Below, one piece after another: positions 2,860 through 33,014 of a stretch of DNA of 33,247 nt. The position numbers were made by a program, and so were the translations under genes. The stretch covers positions 1 to 33,247 of IMG/VR virus record IMGVR_UViG_3300045107_000843; one strand, written 5' to 3'. Positions within the stretch are counted from its first letter, which is position 1. Every line of letters begins with the position of its first letter. Under the pieces are notes generated by a model, which was given only the letters and a program-made list of their open reading frames with translations, was not told the origin of the DNA and searched no databases. Origin of the DNA: a virus.

Positions 2860-3301
2860 TGTCAGCCTCCACCATCGCGCGCGCGGCGGTGCAATCGTCC
2901 ATGGCCGCCGGCCGCTGATAGGCATCCGCCTTTGCCTTCTCAGTGGTGAGGCGGTCAATGACCGGTTTGGCTTTCTCGGTGGCGGCCTGGCTCGTTTCCA
3001 CGCGCTTTTTACCTTCGGCGGCAGTCGCCTCGATGGAAGCGTTTTGCTTGGTGATTGCGGCTTCCAGCGTCGTGGCATTGGCCTGGCTGGTCTTCAGGTC
3101 GCTTTTGAGGCGCTCGATCTCTGCGTCTTTGGCGGCCAGAGCTGCGGCGTCCTTACCCTTTTGCCAGTGCGCGCCGCCCAGAAGCAGCAGCCCGGCCAGC
3201 ACGGCTACGCCGATGGCTTTCCAGGCCCAGGGCGGAACCTTGGCCAGGAAGCCGAGCACACCCCCGAAGAAGGCGCGCGCGGCGAGCAGGAAGGCGATCA
3301 T
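2849..3301 (-). CDS. Inner spanin (Rz-like)
   Basis: The 150-aa type II membrane protein has one transmembrane segment at about residues 25-44 (WKAIGVAVLAGLLLLGGAHW). A long heptad-like Ala/Lys/Glu coiled coil follows in the periplasm (about 50-130). This is the i-spanin pattern; it would pair with the overlapping outer lipoprotein. The ATG at 3301 overlaps the stop of the upstream small membrane protein (ATGA), which supports this start over the GTG at 3310. The rather Phe-rich extra N-terminus (FLLAARAFFGGVLGFLA) could form a second membrane-associated helix. Confidence 0.85.
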   Translation of the reverse strand: MIAFLLAARAFFGGVLGFLAKVPPWAWKAIGVAVLAGLLLLGGAHWQKGKDAAALAAKDAEIERLKSDLKTSQANATTLEAAITKQNASIEATAAEGKKRVETSQAATEKAKPVIDRLTTEKAKADAYQRPAAMDDCTAARAMVEADNGR

Positions 3302-4490: not shown

Positions 4491-5318
4491 ATGCTCAAAA
4501 GAACTATTAAGGGCGCGCTGCATACCCTGGGGCTGGATGTTGTGCGGTGGGTTCCGCCATTGCCACCGCCCGCTCAACGCCTGCACCCTAAAGTGCTGAC
4601 GCACCGCCAGCTGATTGACCTCATCCGCGACCTGTCCTACTGGCAGGACAAGATCAAGGTCTACGAGCACTTCACTGCGGCGTCCGCTCAGGGCTCGTGG
4701 CTCGACCTGCGCGATGGAGCGCCGCGACGTGCGGCAGAGCCTGCGCTGCTGGCTCACGAGGGGAAAATTCACTACGGCTGCGGCAATACCTACTTGCCGG
4801 GCTGGCTCAACATTGACCTGACGTCAATGGAGCAAATCGAGAAAGAGCGCCAACAGGCAAAAGCCGCGCAGCCCGATATCGAGTTTCCGAACTACGCTTT
4901 CGTCAACCTGCTGGAGCGTCACCCTTTTTCGGACAATTCAGTCAGATTCGGTTTTTCCGAAGACATGATTGAGCACCTAACGCAAGGGCAATCGATTTTT
5001 GCTCTAAGCGAGATGTACCGGACACTCACGCCCGGCGGCATCCTGCGCCTCACCTTCCCATGCCTGGAGGGTGTTCTGGCCAAGCACTACACGCCGCCGA
5101 CCTCGGAGCGCGTCATGCAAGGCGAGTTCGAGGCCTATGAATTCTGGGATCACATCCACTTTTATTCCAAAGAGGAACTGCGCCTGGTTGCCGAGCACCT
5201 CGGTTTCCGGGACATGCGCTTCGTGGATTTTCATCAGTCCGAGTTTGCCGAGTTGCGCGGCCTCGAGACGCGCAGCGAGCAAGTCGGGCTGAACTTGTAC
5301 GTGGAGATGACGAAGTAG
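4491..5318 (+). CDS. Class I SAM-dependent methyltransferase (moron)
   Basis: The 275-aa protein has a SAM-binding motif I (KIHYGCGNTYLPGWLNIDL, residues about 92-110), a motif resembling SEDMIEHL, and a GGILRLTFP strand. This is the pattern of the COG4627-type methyltransferases common in cell-surface glycan clusters. Its substrate cannot be read from sequence. It is transcribed against the late operon, with 85 bp separating it from the divergent endolysin start and only 2 bp from the convergent stop of the membrane protein. Parts of its 3' half are visibly AT-richer than neighbours. These are marks of an independently acquired cargo gene, perhaps altering the host surface; that role is inference. 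The SD before ATG is weak. Confidence 0.85.
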   Translation: MLKRTIKGALHTLGLDVVRWVPPLPPPAQRLHPKVLTHRQLIDLIRDLSYWQDKIKVYEHFTAASAQGSWLDLRDGAPRRAAEPALLAHEGKIHYGCGNTYLPGWLNIDLTSMEQIEKERQQAKAAQPDIEFPNYAFVNLLERHPFSDNSVRFGFSEDMIEHLTQGQSIFALSEMYRTLTPGGILRLTFPCLEGVLAKHYTPPTSERVMQGEFEAYEFWDHIHFYSKEELRLVAEHLGFRDMRFVDFHQSEFAELRGLETRSEQVGLNLYVEMTK

Positions 5319-20167: not shown

Positions 20168-21298
20168 TTAGATGCCGGAGTAGCGCACCACGGCGTAGGG
20201 GCGCTTCAGCATCACGCCCGCCGTCGCGTTGGTGTAGTCCTCGATGTAGGCCTTGGCGGTCTTGTGCGTGCCCAGCGCCTGGAACTTCGACGGGACGGCC
20301 TGCACCCACACGCGGCTGTCGTCGGTCGCGCTATCGTTCACCTCCTCGGCGTACATGTAGAACACGTTCGCGCCGCCGTTGGCCTGCTGCAGCTGGGGGG
20401 CGTTCGCCACGCGCATGTTCGGGTAGGTGTCCTTGATCCACTTGGCCACCGAGTTGCCGAACTGGCTCACCACGGTCAGGTACTGCGCCTGGGCGGTGGG
20501 CAGCGCCAGCACGATCGGCGCCTTCATCGGATCGATCACGCCCTGCGACTGCGCCTGCAGCGCGGCTGCGGCGGTGCGGATGTCGGCCACGATCTCCAGG
20601 TAGGTCTTGCTGGACCACAGCGGTGAGGCAGAGGCGCCGTTCGGCACGTTCTGGTACGCGGGCAGGGCCGGGTCGTTCAGGAAGCCGTAGGTGCGGTTGT
20701 TGCCGCTGTTGTAGCCGACGAAGCCGATCAAGTTGCGCTGGATATCCAGCGCCTGTGCGGCGGAGACGCGCTTTTCGGCGGCGTCGTTCAGCTTCATCGT
20801 GGCGGCGCGCGCTTCTTCGAGCGTGGAAACCTGCATGCCCTTTTCGAAGCGCACGATGGTGCGGCGCTCGAAGTTCACGTTCCAGTCGCTCAGGGGCACG
20901 TTGGTGTAGTCGCCGTAGGGAACGGCGTCGCCCAGGTTTTCCAGCACGCCCTGCACCACTTCTTCGTCGTGCCAGGAGCCGACCGTGGTGATGCCCACCA
21001 GCTCGTCGATCGCGCGGATCGCCATCACCACGCGGACGAAGCCGGGCAGCCAGGCTTGCAGGAACTGGACGGGGGCACCCAGGTTGGCGGAGGTAATGCC
21101 GCCCTGGGTGTCATCCATCGCGAACGCCATGGCGCCATCGAGGAACTTCATGTCGAAGGCGATGCCGGCGCGCGCCAGGGCGCGGTAATCGCCGACGTTG
21201 GCGGCGTCCATCACGATCGCCGGTTGGTTCTCGCGGGCGCGCGCGGCCAGGTCACGGCCACTCAGGTGACCGTGAACCTTGGATTTTTGCGTATGCAT
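20168..21298 (-). CDS. Major capsid protein, DUF2184 family
   Basis: The 376-aa protein starts at the ATG at 21298 (MHTQKSKVHGHLSGRDLAAR), supported by GGAG seven bases upstream and by the terminator hairpin just before it. It contains the family's ...AIDELVGITTVGSWHDEEVV, QALDIQRNLIGFVGYN, GFLNDPALPAYQNV and VWVQAVPSKFQALGTH segments, typical of DUF2184 HK97-fold capsid proteins. The ORF extends 31 codons further upstream, but that stretch crosses the hairpin. Confidence 0.9.
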   Translation of the reverse strand: MHTQKSKVHGHLSGRDLAARARENQPAIVMDAANVGDYRALARAGIAFDMKFLDGAMAFAMDDTQGGITSANLGAPVQFLQAWLPGFVRVVMAIRAIDELVGITTVGSWHDEEVVQGVLENLGDAVPYGDYTNVPLSDWNVNFERRTIVRFEKGMQVSTLEEARAATMKLNDAAEKRVSAAQALDIQRNLIGFVGYNSGNNRTYGFLNDPALPAYQNVPNGASASPLWSSKTYLEIVADIRTAAAALQAQSQGVIDPMKAPIVLALPTAQAQYLTVVSQFGNSVAKWIKDTYPNMRVANAPQLQQANGGANVFYMYAEEVNDSATDDSRVWVQAVPSKFQALGTHKTAKAYIEDYTNATAGVMLKRPYAVVRYSGI

Positions 21299-21313
21299 TC
21301 TGTTTCTCCAAAG

Positions 21314-21335
21314 AAAAGGCCCGCCGAAGCGGGCC
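21314..21335 (-). terminator. Terminator-like hairpin upstream of the capsid gene
   Basis: A perfect 7-bp stem, GGCCCGC (21318-21324) with GCGGGCC (21329-21335), has a UUCG loop in RNA and is followed by TTTTCTTT and the capsid SD GGAG. The core hairpin is the same as at 15692-15712. Confidence 0.75.
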
Positions 21336-21353
21336 TTATTGGGTTTGAGTGGT

Positions 21354-27187: not shown

Positions 27188-28582
27188 TTACACCCTCTGA
27201 AAAATCGAGTTCTTCCGGTTCAAGTGCATTTCATAGGCACCCGCACTGGCGTCGGCGTCATCGTCGTGCGCCGCTTCGGGGAAGCCTTCAAGGCAGGCGA
27301 AGTAGGCATCGTTCCAAAGCCCGCGCACGACCTTCACGTTCCCGGCCTTTGCCTGCGAGCTAAAAGGCCCGAAGCGGGTGACCTTGTCTCCGGTCTCGCG
27401 CTCGTAGCCGACGGAGAAGCCGGCGAGCTGCTTGACCATGTAGTTGGCTTGCGCCTTGCCGGCCTGGCCAGGGTCTTGCGGAAGGCCGACGCGGCAGGTG
27501 CGCCCGTCAGCTTTGGCGGTGTTCTTGATCGCTGTTTCCACGTCGCCAGGCCCGGATTGCATGCGCTCGACGTGCGCGATCACGATGATCTTGGTTTCGC
27601 GGCTGTAGCCCATCTTGAGGCCCACAGTCCAGTCGGGATCGTTGTCTTCGTTCTTCTCGGTGGCGGCCAGGTCCCAATACCGCACCCACTTCAGGTCGGC
27701 GGGCACCTCGTCCGGCTCGATCACTTCGACCCAGGCGCGCTTGAAGTACATGCCGCTGGCCGGGCGAATTTTCCAGTTGCCACCGAGCAGGCGCTTCTGT
27801 TCGACCTCCGGCAACGCAAGCAGGTTGGCCTTGTAGCCCGGATCCGCTTTCATCAGCGCCGGGTTGTCCGTGAGCTTGCCGGGGATGAACGTTACCGACT
27901 TCGGCTGAGGCTGCTCATCATGGTCAGGCGGCAGTTCCTCGTTGCCGTATTTCTCGACAAGCTCTTCCCGCGAGTCGCCCCAGATGATGGCGTCGCCGCG
28001 GCGGATGAACCAGCGCAGCACGCCGGCGCGCTCGGGGATCGGGAAGCCAGTGTCCTGGTCGATCCACCAGGCGATGAACTCGGCTACCCAGCTGTCCGCG
28101 TCCGGGTTGCAGGTGGCGCGCACATACGGGCGGACCCCGCACATCGTGCGGTTCCGCGACAGCATGTAGAAGAACTGGTACTTCGTGAAGTGCGTCAGCT
28201 CATCGAAGCCGATGAGCGGGACCGCGCTGCCCTGCCAATCGAGCACGGTGTGCTCGTGCTGCAGGTGCTTGAAGCTGACCGTCGCGCCGCTGGGGAAAAG
28301 GAACTGCGAGTCCCCGACCTTCGGCTGCGCGCCGAGGAGCGGATACAGCCGGCTCGCCTCATCCCAGAGGCCGCCCTCGTTGAAGATCTGTGGCGAGGTG
28401 CGGCGGAAGATGACGGCGCCGAATTCGCCGTTGCCGACGTGCCGCAGCGGCTCGGCCAGCAGGCCGAAGGTCTTGCCGCATCCCGCGGCGCCGCCGGCAA
28501 TGACGATGTCAGCCGGCGATGAAAGCCAATTCTCCTGGAAGCCCGGCTGCGGTCTAATTTCCCTGGTTGGGGTCTCGGCCAT
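27188..28582 (-). CDS. terL: Terminase large subunit
   Basis: The 464-aa packaging motor has an ATPase domain with Walker A GGAAGCGKT (residues 30-38), Walker B VPLIGFDE (121-128, D127/E128) and the coupling motif RATCNP (155-160). The C-terminal RNase H-fold nuclease domain has candidate metal ligands D304 (RYWDLAATEK), D370 (LPQDPG) and the acidic HDDDADASAGAY near residue 440. The start overlaps the small subunit gene by 29 bases. It cuts and pumps DNA into proheads together with the portal. Confidence 0.95.
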   Translation of the reverse strand: MAETPTREIRPQPGFQENWLSSPADIVIAGGAAGCGKTFGLLAEPLRHVGNGEFGAVIFRRTSPQIFNEGGLWDEASRLYPLLGAQPKVGDSQFLFPSGATVSFKHLQHEHTVLDWQGSAVPLIGFDELTHFTKYQFFYMLSRNRTMCGVRPYVRATCNPDADSWVAEFIAWWIDQDTGFPIPERAGVLRWFIRRGDAIIWGDSREELVEKYGNEELPPDHDEQPQPKSVTFIPGKLTDNPALMKADPGYKANLLALPEVEQKRLLGGNWKIRPASGMYFKRAWVEVIEPDEVPADLKWVRYWDLAATEKNEDNDPDWTVGLKMGYSRETKIIVIAHVERMQSGPGDVETAIKNTAKADGRTCRVGLPQDPGQAGKAQANYMVKQLAGFSVGYERETGDKVTRFGPFSSQAKAGNVKVVRGLWNDAYFACLEGFPEAAHDDDADASAGAYEMHLNRKNSIFQRV

Positions 28583-29261
28583 TGCTGGGCAGGTAGATCA
28601 TGACCGGTGGCGGCGCTGCCGGGAGCGGCTTACCGTCGGCACCGGTGTGCTCGTGCTTGTGCTTCTCGGTGTTCATGCCGAGGTGCTTGGCCACCATCTC
28701 CCAGGCCTTGTCCTGGGAGTTCATCTTGACCTCGATGCCGTCTTTCGTGACCTTCACGCCTGCGTACAGGGCGCGGGCGCCGGGCGACAGGTAGCGCGTG
28801 TCCTTGAAGAAGGGCGTTCCCACGCCTTCGCCGTGGCACTCCGGGCACTTGGGGTGCGGGTCGCGCGTGCCATCGTAGCCAAGCTCGGCCGTGATCGGCT
28901 CGTCGGGGTTCTCGCGCTGGCGCGCCGCGAGTTCGCCGGCGGTGAGTTGGTAGGCGAAGCCCTTGCCCCAGCAACAGCGGCAGCAGGTGCGCCGGAACTC
29001 CACCAGCTCGTTCGGATCGGCCGTGGCCATGGCGAGCCACTGGCGCAGCACGGTGTCGGCGTTGACCAGCGTGCGCGCAGACCGCGCGTCCATTGCCGCC
29101 TTGATCGCGTTGCAGATGACCTGGTCATCGAGCATGCGCGTGGCCTGCCTGCGCGCCGCGCTCTCGCTGTAGCCGGCGCGGATAGCCGCCTGGGTGCCAT
29201 TCAGGTCCACCAGGAATTCCTCGACAAAGCGCTTCTGGCGAGGATTAAGGGATGCGGACAT
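28554..29261 (-). CDS. terS: Terminase small subunit
   Basis: The 235-aa protein begins with the Terminase_2/XtmA motif LNPRQKRFVEEFLVDLNGTQ and AAIRAGYSESAARRQATRML, a DNA-binding helix-turn-helix. A middle Cys cluster (C93, C94, C96, C97 and C139, C142 in HPKCPECHGEG) suggests a zinc ribbon inserted after the HTH. GGAGG lies six bases upstream of the ATG. It recognises the packaging site for the large subunit, and follows the non-coding RNA-like region. Confidence 0.9.
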   Translation of the reverse strand: MSASLNPRQKRFVEEFLVDLNGTQAAIRAGYSESAARRQATRMLDDQVICNAIKAAMDARSARTLVNADTVLRQWLAMATADPNELVEFRRTCCRCCWGKGFAYQLTAGELAARQRENPDEPITAELGYDGTRDPHPKCPECHGEGVGTPFFKDTRYLSPGARALYAGVKVTKDGIEVKMNSQDKAWEMVAKHLGMNTEKHKHEHTGADGKPLPAAPPPVMIYLPSNGRDPNQGN

Positions 29262-29308
29262 GAAAGGCCTCCGGCGAGGGCGGCGCGCGCGGAGCGGCTG
29301 AAGAAATG

Positions 29309-29330
29309 GCCCAGCGCGTGAGCGCCGGGC
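29309..29330. other. Hairpin upstream of terS
   Basis: GCCC-A-GCGC (29309-29317) pairs with GCGC-C-GGGC (29322-29330) around a GTGA loop, with one A/C mismatch. It lies about 50 bases upstream of the small terminase start. It might be a translation or packaging-site element; no U-tract is present. Confidence 0.4.
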
Positions 29331-29366
29331 AATCCACCAAAGGAGGAGGGTGGAGGAGACAAACTG

Positions 29367-29920
29367 GAGTGGTGATGCCCACTCAGTAGCCGGCGCGGCA
29401 GAACCGCGTGGCTACCGGCTGGACACCGCACAGGCAACGCGTCCGACACCCTTTCGGAAAGGGACTAGGGGGTGCGACTTACGCCGTTAGCGGGGCAACT
29501 ACCCCTGCAAGGTACGAGGGCTGGCTACTCGCTGCGTCGCGGGCCCGTTGCGCCCCGGGAACCTCGCGACATCCGCTTTCACCAACAAGGAAGAAGCCGT
29601 TATCGTTGACGCTACCGTGCGTGGGGGCCTAGGGGATTAACCCGGGGCCTCGCGAGCCACCTTCACCGCGCGTGTCTCTGTCCGCCGCCGCTCACCCCTG
29701 ACAAGGCTTGCATTGGCACGGCACTGTCAGATGCCGCCAGCTTCTTGCTTGTTGGTGCCGTTTACGTTTCCGGCGCCTCAGCCCCTTTTGGGGAGGCCGC
29801 CCTTGCGCCCTCGCGGGCCATAAACCTGAACCCGGTTGCCCATCCGGGGTTCCGCACCGGGCATCCCCAGGGGAAACGGCTTAAGCACATTTGCCTCAGT
29901 TGGCGTAGTGGTTCCGTGCC
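29367..29920 (-). ncRNA. Candidate large structured non-coding RNA (ornate, tRNA-adjacent)
   Basis: The stretch between the tRNA and terminase (29262-29931) has no convincing gene on either strand but is densely structured. On the minus strand an 18-nt long-range helix joins 29757-29740 to 29597-29580 with 17 of 18 matches. GGCACGG (29920-29914) matches CCGTGCC (29721-29715), and GCCGTTT (29880-29874) matches AAACGGC (29763-29757). Local hairpins include GAACCCCGG/CCGGGTTC (29852-29828), GCCC-GCGA-GGGC with a GNRA loop (29818-29807), a bulged stem at 29797-29775, GTCGCG/CGCGAC (29570-29536), CCCTTT/AAAGGG (29463-29449), GTAGCC-CGCGG/CCGCG-GGCTAC (29415-29386) and GAGTGG/CCACTC (29384-29367). 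Location next to a phage tRNA recalls GOLLD and ROOL RNAs, but no sequence match to either is claimed. Ends are approximate. Confidence 0.6.
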
Positions 29921-29931
29921 TTGCTGCTGTG

Positions 29932-30007
29932 TGGTTGCGGGAGAACGATTCGAACGTCCGACAGCAGGGTTATGAGCCCCGCGCTCTACCGACTGAGCTA
30001 TCCCGCC
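29932..30007 (-). tRNA. tRNA-Met(CAU), hybrid initiator/elongator features
   Basis: A complete 76-nt cloverleaf including encoded CCA: acceptor GGCGGGA, D-arm GCTC-AGTCGGTA-GAGC, anticodon arm CGGGG-CTCATAA-CCCTG, variable loop CTGTC, T-arm GGACG-TTCGAAT-CGTTC, 3' TCCCGCAACCA. Anticodon CAU allows Met (initiator or elongator) or, if lysidine-modified, Ile2. The 1:72 position is a G-A mismatch, and three consecutive G-C pairs (29-31:39-41) close the anticodon loop; both are initiator-type features. The 11:24 pair is C:G, which is elongator-type. It lies on the late transcript after the promoter and terminator. Confidence 0.93.
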
Positions 30008-30111
30008 TTGATCTGATCTACATGGCGCGCCTACAAGGTTGACCATCGAGAGACTAGGCCTCGACGATACCTGCTAAGTTCGACGTGTCAAGCACTAGCG
30101 CAAATCGAAAA

Positions 30112-30144
30112 CAAAAAGCCCGCGCGGTTTGCACCGGGCGGGCT
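30112..30144 (-). terminator. Terminator (tR'-like) downstream of the late promoter
   Basis: A 7-bp stem, AGCCCGC (30117-30123) with GCGGGCT (30138-30144), is followed on minus by TTTTTG. Its end lies about 60 nt after the predicted transcription start, so it would make a short leader RNA unless polymerase is terminator-resistant. Confidence 0.78.
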
Positions 30145-30178
30145 CTGGTCGGATTTTTAGCTATGCCAACTAAGACGC

Positions 30179-30207
30179 TATATACGCCACGGTTTGGCGG
30201 GTGTCAA
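30179..30207 (-). promoter_or_regulatory. Strong sigma70 promoter (pR'-like late promoter)
   Basis: On the minus strand, -35 TTGACA (30207-30202) and -10 TATATA (30184-30179) are separated by exactly 17 bp, near consensus. The spacer contains an inverted repeat, CGCCA-N5-TGGCG, a possible protein-binding element. The promoter lies just after the stop of the Q-like gene and would start transcription near 30172. Confidence 0.78.
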
Positions 30208-30213
30208 CAACCC

Positions 30214-30229
30214 GGCCTTAAATAAGGCC
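30214..30229. other. Palindrome at the end of the Q-like gene
   Basis: GGCCTTA and TAAGGCC form a perfect 7-bp inverted repeat around two bases, spanning the stop codon of the regulator gene, directly upstream of the promoter -35. It may be an operator or hairpin. Confidence 0.5.
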
Positions 30230-30883
30230 GCAGGCGCGCAATGTGTCCTCGGCCGCCTTCATCGCATCTTCCTCGATGCCTGGCGCGGCGCGCCGCCCCT
30301 TCTTCGATCGGCTGCCGCCAAAATAGGTAGCCACCTTCTGCGCGTGCGCGGCCACGGTGTGGCGGTCCACGCCGTGCTTCGCCGCGAGGTCGCTGAACGA
30401 CGGCCGTTGCGACTTCGGGGCGAACTGCATCAGCACGTATTCCCGGCGAAGCAGGCTGTTGGACGTGCACCCTGCCAGTGCGGTGCGGCGGACATGGTCG
30501 GCAAGGTAGCTGATCGCGTTCTGCCATTCCTGGCTGAACTTGTGGCCGGAGCAGCAGGAGGCCTTGCAGTCGCAGGGCACGGTCGGTGGCGCTGAGCGCG
30601 CGATCAGAAGCGCCACCTTGAGCGGGCCCAGCTGCTGAATCTCCTGGCGCACCATCCCCGCCTGCGCGGCGCCGTCGAGCCCGGCCAGGCCGGAGCCTTC
30701 CCCGCGCGTGGTGTCAGCCATCCGGTTCATCACCGGCCGGTCGTACGCGCCTTCGGAGAAGTGGAAGGCGAACGTAAGCGCTGCATGCGCGCTCGCGAAC
30801 AGCGGATCCTCTTTCATAGTCTGACTACCCCTGGTTGTTTCCCGTGAAACTTGAGGTTCTTCTTCAAGTACGGCTTCGGTCAT
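30218..30883 (-). CDS. Zinc/HTH protein, candidate late-gene antiterminator (Q-like)
   Basis: The 221-aa protein has a Cys/His cluster CDCKASCCSGH (C104, C106, C110, C111, H114) followed by a helix with EWQNAISYLADHV, another Cys139, and a helix-turn-helix-like end (about 161-190: FSDLAAKHGVDRHTVAAHAQ). These features fit a DNA- or RNA-polymerase-associated regulator. It lies immediately upstream of a strong promoter and terminator that precede all late genes. This is the layout of lambda Q, pR' and tR', which is why I call it Q-like; sequence similarity to known Q families was not tested. The ATG overlaps the upstream gene's stop region. Confidence 0.6.
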   Translation of the reverse strand: MTEAVLEEEPQVSRETTRGSQTMKEDPLFASAHAALTFAFHFSEGAYDRPVMNRMADTTRGEGSGLAGLDGAAQAGMVRQEIQQLGPLKVALLIARSAPPTVPCDCKASCCSGHKFSQEWQNAISYLADHVRRTALAGCTSNSLLRREYVLMQFAPKSQRPSFSDLAAKHGVDRHTVAAHAQKVATYFGGSRSKKGRRAAPGIEEDAMKAAEDTLRACGLI

Positions 30884-32097: not shown

Positions 32098-32571
32098 CTA
32101 TGCGGGCGCGCCCGGCTCCAGCGTGCAAAGCCACTTCGCGAAGGTGGCGTTCGACAGCGCCTCCGCGCAGCGTTTCTCCCGGATGTGGGCGATGGCCGTG
32201 CTCGGATACCAGCCGTCCCGGATCAGCGCCAGTGCGACGATCAGGCCCGAACGGTTCCAGCCGGCTTCGCAGTGCACCAGCGTGGGCCCGAGCTTCCGGC
32301 AGGCACGCACCTGGTCCGCGATCATCACCAGCCGGTCCACCGGCGGCAGCGACGGGCCGTCCATGAACGGGTAGATGGTGATGTGCTGGCCCGCGCGCGG
32401 CGCGTGGTGGGGCTTTCCATACAGGTCGAACACGAATTCAAAGCGCCGGTGCCCCTCGGCCGCGTCGTACCCTGGCCAGCCGCCCTGCCAGAGGTCGCCA
32501 TCGATCAGCGAATAGTGGCCGGTCGGGCGCAGCCAGTCGCTGCTGTTCAGAGTCGTGCCGTTGGTGATCAC
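32098..32571 (-). CDS. Dual-specificity protein phosphatase
   Basis: The protein tyrosine/dual-specificity phosphatase active site HCEAGWNRSG (HCx5R) is complete: Cys101 and Arg107 from the GTG start, with Asp in IYPFMDG as candidate general acid. The likely start is GTG at 32571, which overlaps the upstream TGA (GTGA) and has GATGGGGG before it; an ATG at 32598 would give nine more residues (166 aa total). It may remove phosphates from host or phage proteins during takeover; the target is unknown. Confidence 0.85.
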   Translation of the reverse strand: MITNGTTLNSSDWLRPTGHYSLIDGDLWQGGWPGYDAAEGHRRFEFVFDLYGKPHHAPRAGQHITIYPFMDGPSLPPVDRLVMIADQVRACRKLGPTLVHCEAGWNRSGLIVALALIRDGWYPSTAIAHIREKRCAEALSNATFAKWLCTLEPGAPA

Positions 32572-33014
32572 GCTACCCCCATCAGTTGCTTCAGCCATTG
32601 AATGCCGCGCTCATCGCGCACGGCCGCTCCGTCCACCTCGATCACGCGCCAGCCCGCCAGCAGCGACAGGGCGCGCTTCTCGATATCGGCGGCGGCGCGC
32701 GCTTTCACCCGGTGCGCTCCGCCCTGCACCTCCACGCCAATGCGCAGCGCCGGCCATGCGAAGTCCAGGCGGAAGTCCCGGCCGGTGATGTGGAAGTACT
32801 CGGTCACCGGCGCCGGCAGGCCGTGGGCGGCGATCTGCTGCTCGAAGCGCACTTCAAGCTGGCTGCGCTCGCGCGGCGGCTTGATATCGGCCTGCACCTC
32901 GGCGCGGCCGGGCGACTGCCGGCGGTCGGCAGGTTGCTCCCCGGCAATGCCGCGCACGCCGCCGGCGGCCACGCGCTCGGCCACCATTTCGCGCGTCCAC
33001 CGCACCTCGCTCAT
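32568..33014 (-). CDS. PD-(D/E)XK endonuclease-like protein (DUF559/Vsr-like)
   Basis: The 148-aa protein has the nuclease core FRLDFAWPALRIGVEVQGG (D84, E95, Q97) and later DIEKRALSLLAGWRVIEVDG, matching the DUF559/Vsr superfamily. The usual Lys of ExK is Gln here (EVQ). Such proteins may be nicking enzymes or resolvase-like. It starts by ATGA overlap with the FtsK-gamma gene. Confidence 0.82.
   Translation of the reverse strand: MSEVRWTREMVAERVAAGGVRGIAGEQPADRRQSPGRAEVQADIKPPRERSQLEVRFEQQIAAHGLPAPVTEYFHITGRDFRLDFAWPALRIGVEVQGGAHRVKARAAADIEKRALSLLAGWRVIEVDGAAVRDERGIQWLKQLMGVA

Follow-up and report, generated by a model that had tools for sequence, protein, structure and literature searches.

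A double-hairpin RNA of the family RF02278, at 29361-29301 on the minus strand, is the best-supported RNA of the locus which lies between the tRNA-Met gene and the terminase genes of this phage. It belongs to a phage-wide family whose pairs covary and which is associated with terminase genes, and the 565-nt stretch upstream of it showed neither homology nor excess folding over its whole length. We lean towards reading 30091-29301 on the minus strand as a small phage non-coding transcription unit, which carries tRNA-Met, the 565-nt body and an anti-Shine-Dalgarno (anti-SD) double-hairpin RNA.

Organization of the locus

The window analysed here is a viral record of 33,247 bases at its full length. 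On the minus strand the order is upstream gene, terminator hairpin, promoter-like site, tRNA-Met, 565 nt, double-hairpin RNA, terS and terL. The features are as follows.

30883-30218, minus strand: upstream gene
30107-30144, minus strand: hairpin and U-run (inverted repeat I6), likely the intrinsic terminator of the upstream gene (30883-30218)
30064-30091, minus strand: promoter-like site TTGACA-16-TATCGT, 10/12 consensus matches
29932-30007, minus strand: tRNA-Met(CAT), initiator-like, CCA encoded
29367-29931, minus strand: 565-nt non-coding body, from the tRNA to the double-hairpin RNA
29740-29757, minus strand: 5' arm (in RNA sense) of the long-range helix
29580-29597, minus strand: 3' arm (in RNA sense) of the long-range helix, 17/18 complementary
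29367-29427, minus strand: local hairpin of high stability, at the body's 3' end, z -5.2
29301-29361, minus strand: double-hairpin ('toxic') RNA, RF02278, 52.4 bits against a cut-off of 50
29309-29330, minus strand: second, terminator-like hairpin of the double-hairpin RNA, with degraded U-tail CATTTCTTC
29267-29272, minus strand: terS ribosome binding site GGAGGC, the predicted partner of GUCUCC in the double-hairpin RNA
28554-29261, minus strand: terS, terminase small subunit (Terminase_2, E=5e-32)
27188-28582, minus strand: terL, terminase large subunit (Terminase_6N/6C)

The two arms of inverted repeat I6 (30117-30128/30133-30144) are 92% complementary, and TTTTTGTTTT comes next on the minus strand. 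The sequence TTGACA-16-TATCGT is the sole promoter-like site within 29150-30300, where shuffled sequences are expected to give 0.2; as a match to the consensus it is a candidate promoter. Just as the first-pass annotation had it, the stretch is flanked by the tRNA (30007-29932, minus strand) and TerS (29261-28554, minus strand) and shows no coding signal: six ORFs were tested and a PHROG family was found for none. On this PHROG result, coding sequence at 29367-29931 was rejected. It is supported that this stretch is non-coding, runs on the same strand as the tRNA and the terminase genes, and belongs to a locus with a structured RNA. Elsewhere in the window, a phage-borne dual-specificity protein phosphatase (DSPc, E=5e-9) was identified at 32098-32598 on the minus strand.

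Three features of the window's tRNA-Met are marks of an initiator tRNA: G1.A72 is unpaired, position 73 is an A, and the anticodon stem has three G-C pairs (GGG/CCC). The initiator A11-U24 is absent from its D-arm, in which GCTC/GAGC is of the elongator type. Among the beta genomes carrying RF02278, the best chromosomal matches are initiator tRNAs, with 76-78% identity. The host of this phage is inferred solely from the RF02278 match and this tRNA similarity. A tRNA-Met with mismatched 1-72 was also seen upstream of the terminase in the TerL relatives L033, L040 and L045/L046, at these positions.

L033, 391-466: tRNA-Met gene
L040, 2008-2082: tRNA-Met gene
L045, 855-931: tRNA-Met gene

The double-hairpin RNA of the window

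RF02278, named 'Betaproteobacteria toxic small RNA', was matched at 29361-29301 on the minus strand with 52.4 bits and E=6e-8 for the whole window, which is only just above the curated cut-off of 50. The element is 61 nt long, begins 6 nt beyond the edge at 29367 and ends 40 nt before terS, and it had been overlooked by the first-pass annotation. It is built of a UGUCUCC tail, a hairpin with a CUCCUCCUUU loop, GGAUU and a terminator hairpin. Its fold is much more stable than that of shuffled sequence (z about -5, that is -4.9), and the MFE structure is identical with the centroid, showing two hairpins together with an unpaired CU-rich 5' tail and loop.

The chromosomal RF02278 RNAs of Burkholderia cenocepacia ('double-hairpin RNAs') were detected on Northern blots, overexpression of ncS27 led to slower growth and its silencing to the opposite, and for the CU-rich parts of the chromosomal RNAs the prediction is that they mask ribosome binding sites (PMC5688073, PMC4603805). 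A discrete short transcript and the slowing of growth are known for chromosomal members only (PMC5688073, PMC4603805). The window element shares with ncS03, ncS05, ncS27 and ncS62 of this species the UGUCUCC tail, the UCC...GGA hairpin with CU-rich loop, GGAUU and the terminator hairpin. In the proteobacterial genomes searched, chromosomal RF02278 RNAs are free-standing and number up to nine per genome, and in several of them the -10 distance is occupied by AT-rich sequence resembling TATAGT. In contrast, the window element sits between a tRNA and terS, lacks a -10 box of its own at the right distance, and has a degraded U-tail.

The CcsR or 'cuckoo' RNAs of Alphaproteobacteria are short RNAs whose CU-rich unpaired stretches are complementary to ribosome binding sites. 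The NmsRa/NmsRb (RcoF) RNAs of Neisseria are likewise short RNAs with CU-rich unpaired stretches complementary to the ribosome binding site (PMC5688073). Compared with NmsRb, the window element is sub-threshold in Rfam (24 of 52 bits). We know of no phage context for the NmsR and CcsR RNAs.

A phage family of double-hairpin elements

To our knowledge, double-hairpin RNAs have so far been known only from chromosomes. Narrower RF02278 patterns gave no true viral relatives, but a broader pattern, TGTCTCCTCC-N8-26-GGATT-N0-4-GCCC, found them and matched 50 stretches in viral contigs. About 40 of the 50 are clear elements with UGUCUCC, a hairpin closed by UCC/GGA, GGAUU and a terminator hairpin with U-tail.

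Because UCC, GGA and GCCC are imposed by the search pattern, they are uninformative. The pattern leaves free the pairs inside hairpin 1 and the terminator's 3' half. Folding was better than in shuffles (p<=0.05) for hairpin 1 in 84% of the elements and for the terminator in 100%. The same parts covary, with 61 double-change cells against 28.7 in shuffled data (reached in 0 of 500 shuffles) and a covariation score of 0.273 against 0.094, which is also far above every slid register. The window's scores with our own covariance models R1 and R2 are circular, as the window is in the training set, and its Rfam score is not.

When 20 loci were scanned with Rfam, only two of the 20 elements reached the RF02278 cut-off and other families covered none, which makes the phage elements a diverged branch of an already known kind. 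In this scanned subset most phage relatives are below the Rfam cut-off. Across the phage family the CU-rich anti-SD loop of RF02278 has mostly been lost and the UGUCUCC tail kept; the window retains the loop. Such a loss of the anti-SD loop means that the chromosomal mechanism may not carry over to most of the phage relatives. Shine-Dalgarno sequences of the form GGAGACA, which match UGUCUCC, were not enriched in the genes of element-bearing phages. Judged by Rfam 15 and open-access papers, the phage branch of double-hairpin RNAs looks new. One viral contig (L294) contains two double-hairpin elements, at 4789-4850 and 3024-3080, both on the minus strand.

Association with terminase genes, tRNAs and other RNA modules

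A terminase subunit is encoded downstream in 13 of the 20 element loci tested by profile search, which makes at least 13 of about 38 overall; these loci were partly picked for terminase-looking ORFs, so 13 is a floor and not an unbiased rate. The downstream terminases belong to Terminase_2, Terminase_6, GpA, the Sf6 type and PHROG terminase families.

Such a position is also what a terminase leader acting only in cis would have, in which the tail of the 61-nt element would pair with the terS ribosome binding site and the second hairpin would attenuate, keeping the packaging genes late or low. We consider this rather unlikely. It agrees with the predicted fold of the terS leader, where GUCUCC pairs with the GGAGGC of the terS SD in both MFE and centroid, with the many relatives whose distance to the terminase genes behind them is some tens to hundreds of nt, and with the strong-to-weak terminators immediately ahead of the operon. 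However, the fold of the whole leader is not unusual (z -1.3), and free-standing sRNA members occur in the chromosomes of host genomes. In L267, L301 and L169 the element is separated from the terminase by further genes or tRNAs, and some relatives precede genes other than terminase, such as the helicase gene dnaB (L288), the polymerase gene polA (L292) and a methylase gene (L294).

Transfer RNAs are found on both sides of the element. A tRNA ends 1-3 nt before it in L301 (Gly), L305 (Met) and L307 (Met), and tRNAs come after it in L275, L301 and L169. L169 is a portal-gene relative of the window phage (55% identity), and has about 335 nt of non-coding sequence, the element, tRNA-Asn and terS; its element scored 34.7 bits with R1 and 38.0 bits with R2. 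The following modules were also identified in the gap, upstream of the element.

L307 3212-3295, L308 7512-7595, L284 2455-2538, L267 2466-2549, all minus strand: ~85-nt module
L295 1402-1489 (plus strand), L275 3663-3748 (minus strand), L287 5430-5519 (minus strand): ~85-nt module, further loci
L264, L267, L283, L286, L299, L302, L312: ~76-nt module, directly before UGUCUCC
L169 3241-3331, L301 4166-4256, both plus strand: tRNA-like stretch of ~92 nt

The ~85-nt module is a three-helix RNA upstream of the element in seven phages, with double changes in 10 of its 30 pairs (0 of 500 shuffles). It was not found in 200 Burkholderiales genomes, in a search run without positive control. The ~76-nt module, also in seven phages, abuts the element, shows double changes in 6 of 24 pairs, and its closing stem reaches to within a few nt of the double-hairpin RNA. 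The tRNA-like stretch occupies the same non-coding gap in two loci and has acceptor-, D- and anticodon-like arms; it lacks a normal T-loop and is not called by ARAGORN. Rfam gave no match to any of the three in the loci scanned, and the window carries none of them.

A wider reading, which we offer tentatively and with rather low confidence, is that the terminase-proximal gap of many phages, probably those of Betaproteobacteria, is a hot spot of non-coding RNA. Interchangeable modules, namely initiator-like tRNAs, the ~85-nt, ~76-nt and tRNA-like modules and the 565-nt body of the window as a larger structured one, would act there with anti-Shine-Dalgarno RNAs and jointly retune late translation initiation.

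Folding of the 565-nt body

The first-pass annotation had proposed that 29367-29931 is a large structured RNA. The inverted repeat, the non-coding nature and the position of the stretch were confirmed; the fold of the whole region (z -0.43) and the 7-nt complements gave the large RNA no support.

The 18-nt inverted repeat at 29580-29597/29740-29757 lies exactly where it had been placed and is 17/18 (94%) complementary, with the arms 142 nt apart. This 94% is unmatched among the 25 longest inverted repeats (>=16 nt, within 600 nt) of the 33-kb window, where the runner-up has 89%. The match had been called improbable by chance, which is correct: when the region was shuffled 400 times by a first-order Markov model, 0 of 400 reached it and the highest value was 16/18, three times. 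The helix has an ensemble probability of about 1.0 and is extended by a helix of 12 bp, 29716-29729 with 29607-29620. The central 178-nt arm folds better than 100 of 100 shuffles (z -2.9), for an arm chosen post hoc. Hairpin 29427-29367 has z -5.2, with as stable a fold in 0 of 100 shuffles, and can pair in two alternative ways, either as 29419-29386 plus 29384-29367 or as 29427-29374. The central arm, this hairpin and the 61 nt at 29361-29301 are the only three parts which stand out against shuffles.

Over the whole 565 nt neither the minus strand (z -0.43) nor the plus strand (z -0.83) shows a folding excess over shuffles, and the whole unit including the tRNA folds like shuffled sequence (z 0.23). 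Folding of the 5' 174 nt and of the 152 nt at 29579-29428 is no better than that of shuffles. Long-range pairs are ordinary, being reached by 44% of shuffles, and the 5'-3' closure is reached by 28%. The 7-nt long-range complements, which had been counted as part of the structure, are at chance level, as there are 18 exact ones against 19 +/- 7 in shuffles. Outside the region, the strongest local RNA folds of the window are at 448-547 (z -6.2) and 21248-21347 (z -5.8), both on the minus strand.

Comparison with known large RNAs and search for homologues

Like GOLLD and ROOL, the stretch is a phage non-coding sequence of several hundred nt beside a tRNA (the junction here is at 29932/29931), and a large RNA resembling them had been suggested. 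It differs from both in that Rfam matches neither, even for the 570 nt alone at E<=10, and in having no homologues found. OLE and HEARO likewise had no Rfam match in the window, nor on the 570 nt alone at E<=10. On these Rfam results, membership of 29367-29931 in the GOLLD, ROOL, OLE or HEARO families was rejected.

Homologues of the 565 nt were found neither by blastn against phage and plasmid records, nor by nhmmer and sensitive blastn in about 240 loci collected via TerS, TerL, portal and the upstream gene, nor in about 400 Burkholderiales genomes, nor in the element-bearing loci and 10 viral records with the element. The matches which these searches returned were only to the tRNA, to the double-hairpin or short chance ones. 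A pattern for the arms found eight viral stretches with one 18-mer each, and wider similarity was absent. The closest relatives by TerL (63-70% identity) and TerS (about 50%) are without the arrangement of the window. The tRNA-Met and the double-hairpin RNA are direct neighbours in two other phages, L305 and L307, so the tRNA/element arrangement does not always include the 565-nt body. In one TerL relative (L024, 964-1640), about 680 nt without clear gene follow a tRNA-Thr, and they are dissimilar to the stretch of the window.

A novel class of large structured RNA, similar to GOLLD and ROOL by behaviour and not by descent, closed by a helix after the tRNA and with the 17/18 arm as its core, seems to us improbable. 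What suits it is that no inverted repeat in the window is better, that the central arm (z -2.9) and the 3' hairpin (z -5.2) fold well, that the position after tRNA-Met is as in GOLLD env-38 (PMC12286853), and that other phages have covarying RNA modules at the same place. Against it stand a whole-region fold that does not exceed shuffles, chance-level closure and long-range pairing, no homologues found and negative Rfam results at E<=10. A large folded RNA at 29367-29931 is unproven, and the 565-nt body may act as a spacer or as a processing scaffold, or may form a private structured module. That the stretch acts as DNA, where proteins for packaging (at a cos/pac site) or for another purpose would bind ahead of terS with the inverted repeat as paired sites, is very unlikely. 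Inverted repeats suit dimeric proteins, and cos and pac sites are often in or just before terS. However, covariation at the RNA level is seen in the RF02278 element and its relatives, paired operators would not be expected to have 142 nt between them and a helix that continues inward, and the tRNA is a genuine gene.

A proposed small non-coding transcription unit

In the small transcription unit which we prefer, a dedicated promoter past the terminator of the upstream gene would drive a single transcript, with the initiator-like tRNA-Met first, the lineage-specific 565-nt body next and the RF02278-type RNA of about 61 nt at the 3' end. The second hairpin of the double-hairpin RNA would serve as a (weak) terminator just before terS. 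The tRNA would be freed by tRNA-processing enzymes; the double-hairpin RNA would either be released or stay as a 3' domain. As a spacer or processing scaffold, the 565-nt body would take the place that tRNAs and the ~85-nt and ~76-nt modules have in other phages.

The UGUCUCC tail and the CUCCUCCUUU loop would mimic an anti-Shine-Dalgarno sequence and pair with the ribosome binding sites of mRNAs, which would damp the translation of these mRNAs in trans and possibly also act in cis on terS translation. We infer transcription, processing and ribosome binding site pairing in the window phage, with pairing in trans as is assumed for the chromosomal kin. In favour of the unit are the RF02278 match, the covarying viral relatives with their terminase and tRNA neighbours, the promoter-like site and tRNA order of the window, and the findings on the chromosomal RNAs of B. 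cenocepacia. Several points count against it: the promoter is a consensus match, the tail of the terminator is degraded, the double-hairpin RNA has no -10 box of its own, its RF02278 score is barely above the cut-off, most phage relatives have lost the anti-SD loop, and GGAGACA is not enriched among phage Shine-Dalgarno sequences.

Protein-centred annotation leaves the gap before terminase genes blank, and this gap is a good hunting ground for new phage RNAs. The chromosomal double-hairpin RNAs slow growth by an uncertain mechanism, and the phage double-hairpin RNAs are natural variants for probing the targets of the RNA. Since diverged members are widespread among viral contigs and often lie close to terminase genes and tRNAs, it seems that phages employ, or have borrowed, anti-Shine-Dalgarno RNA mimics, and with these RNAs they could tune protein synthesis.
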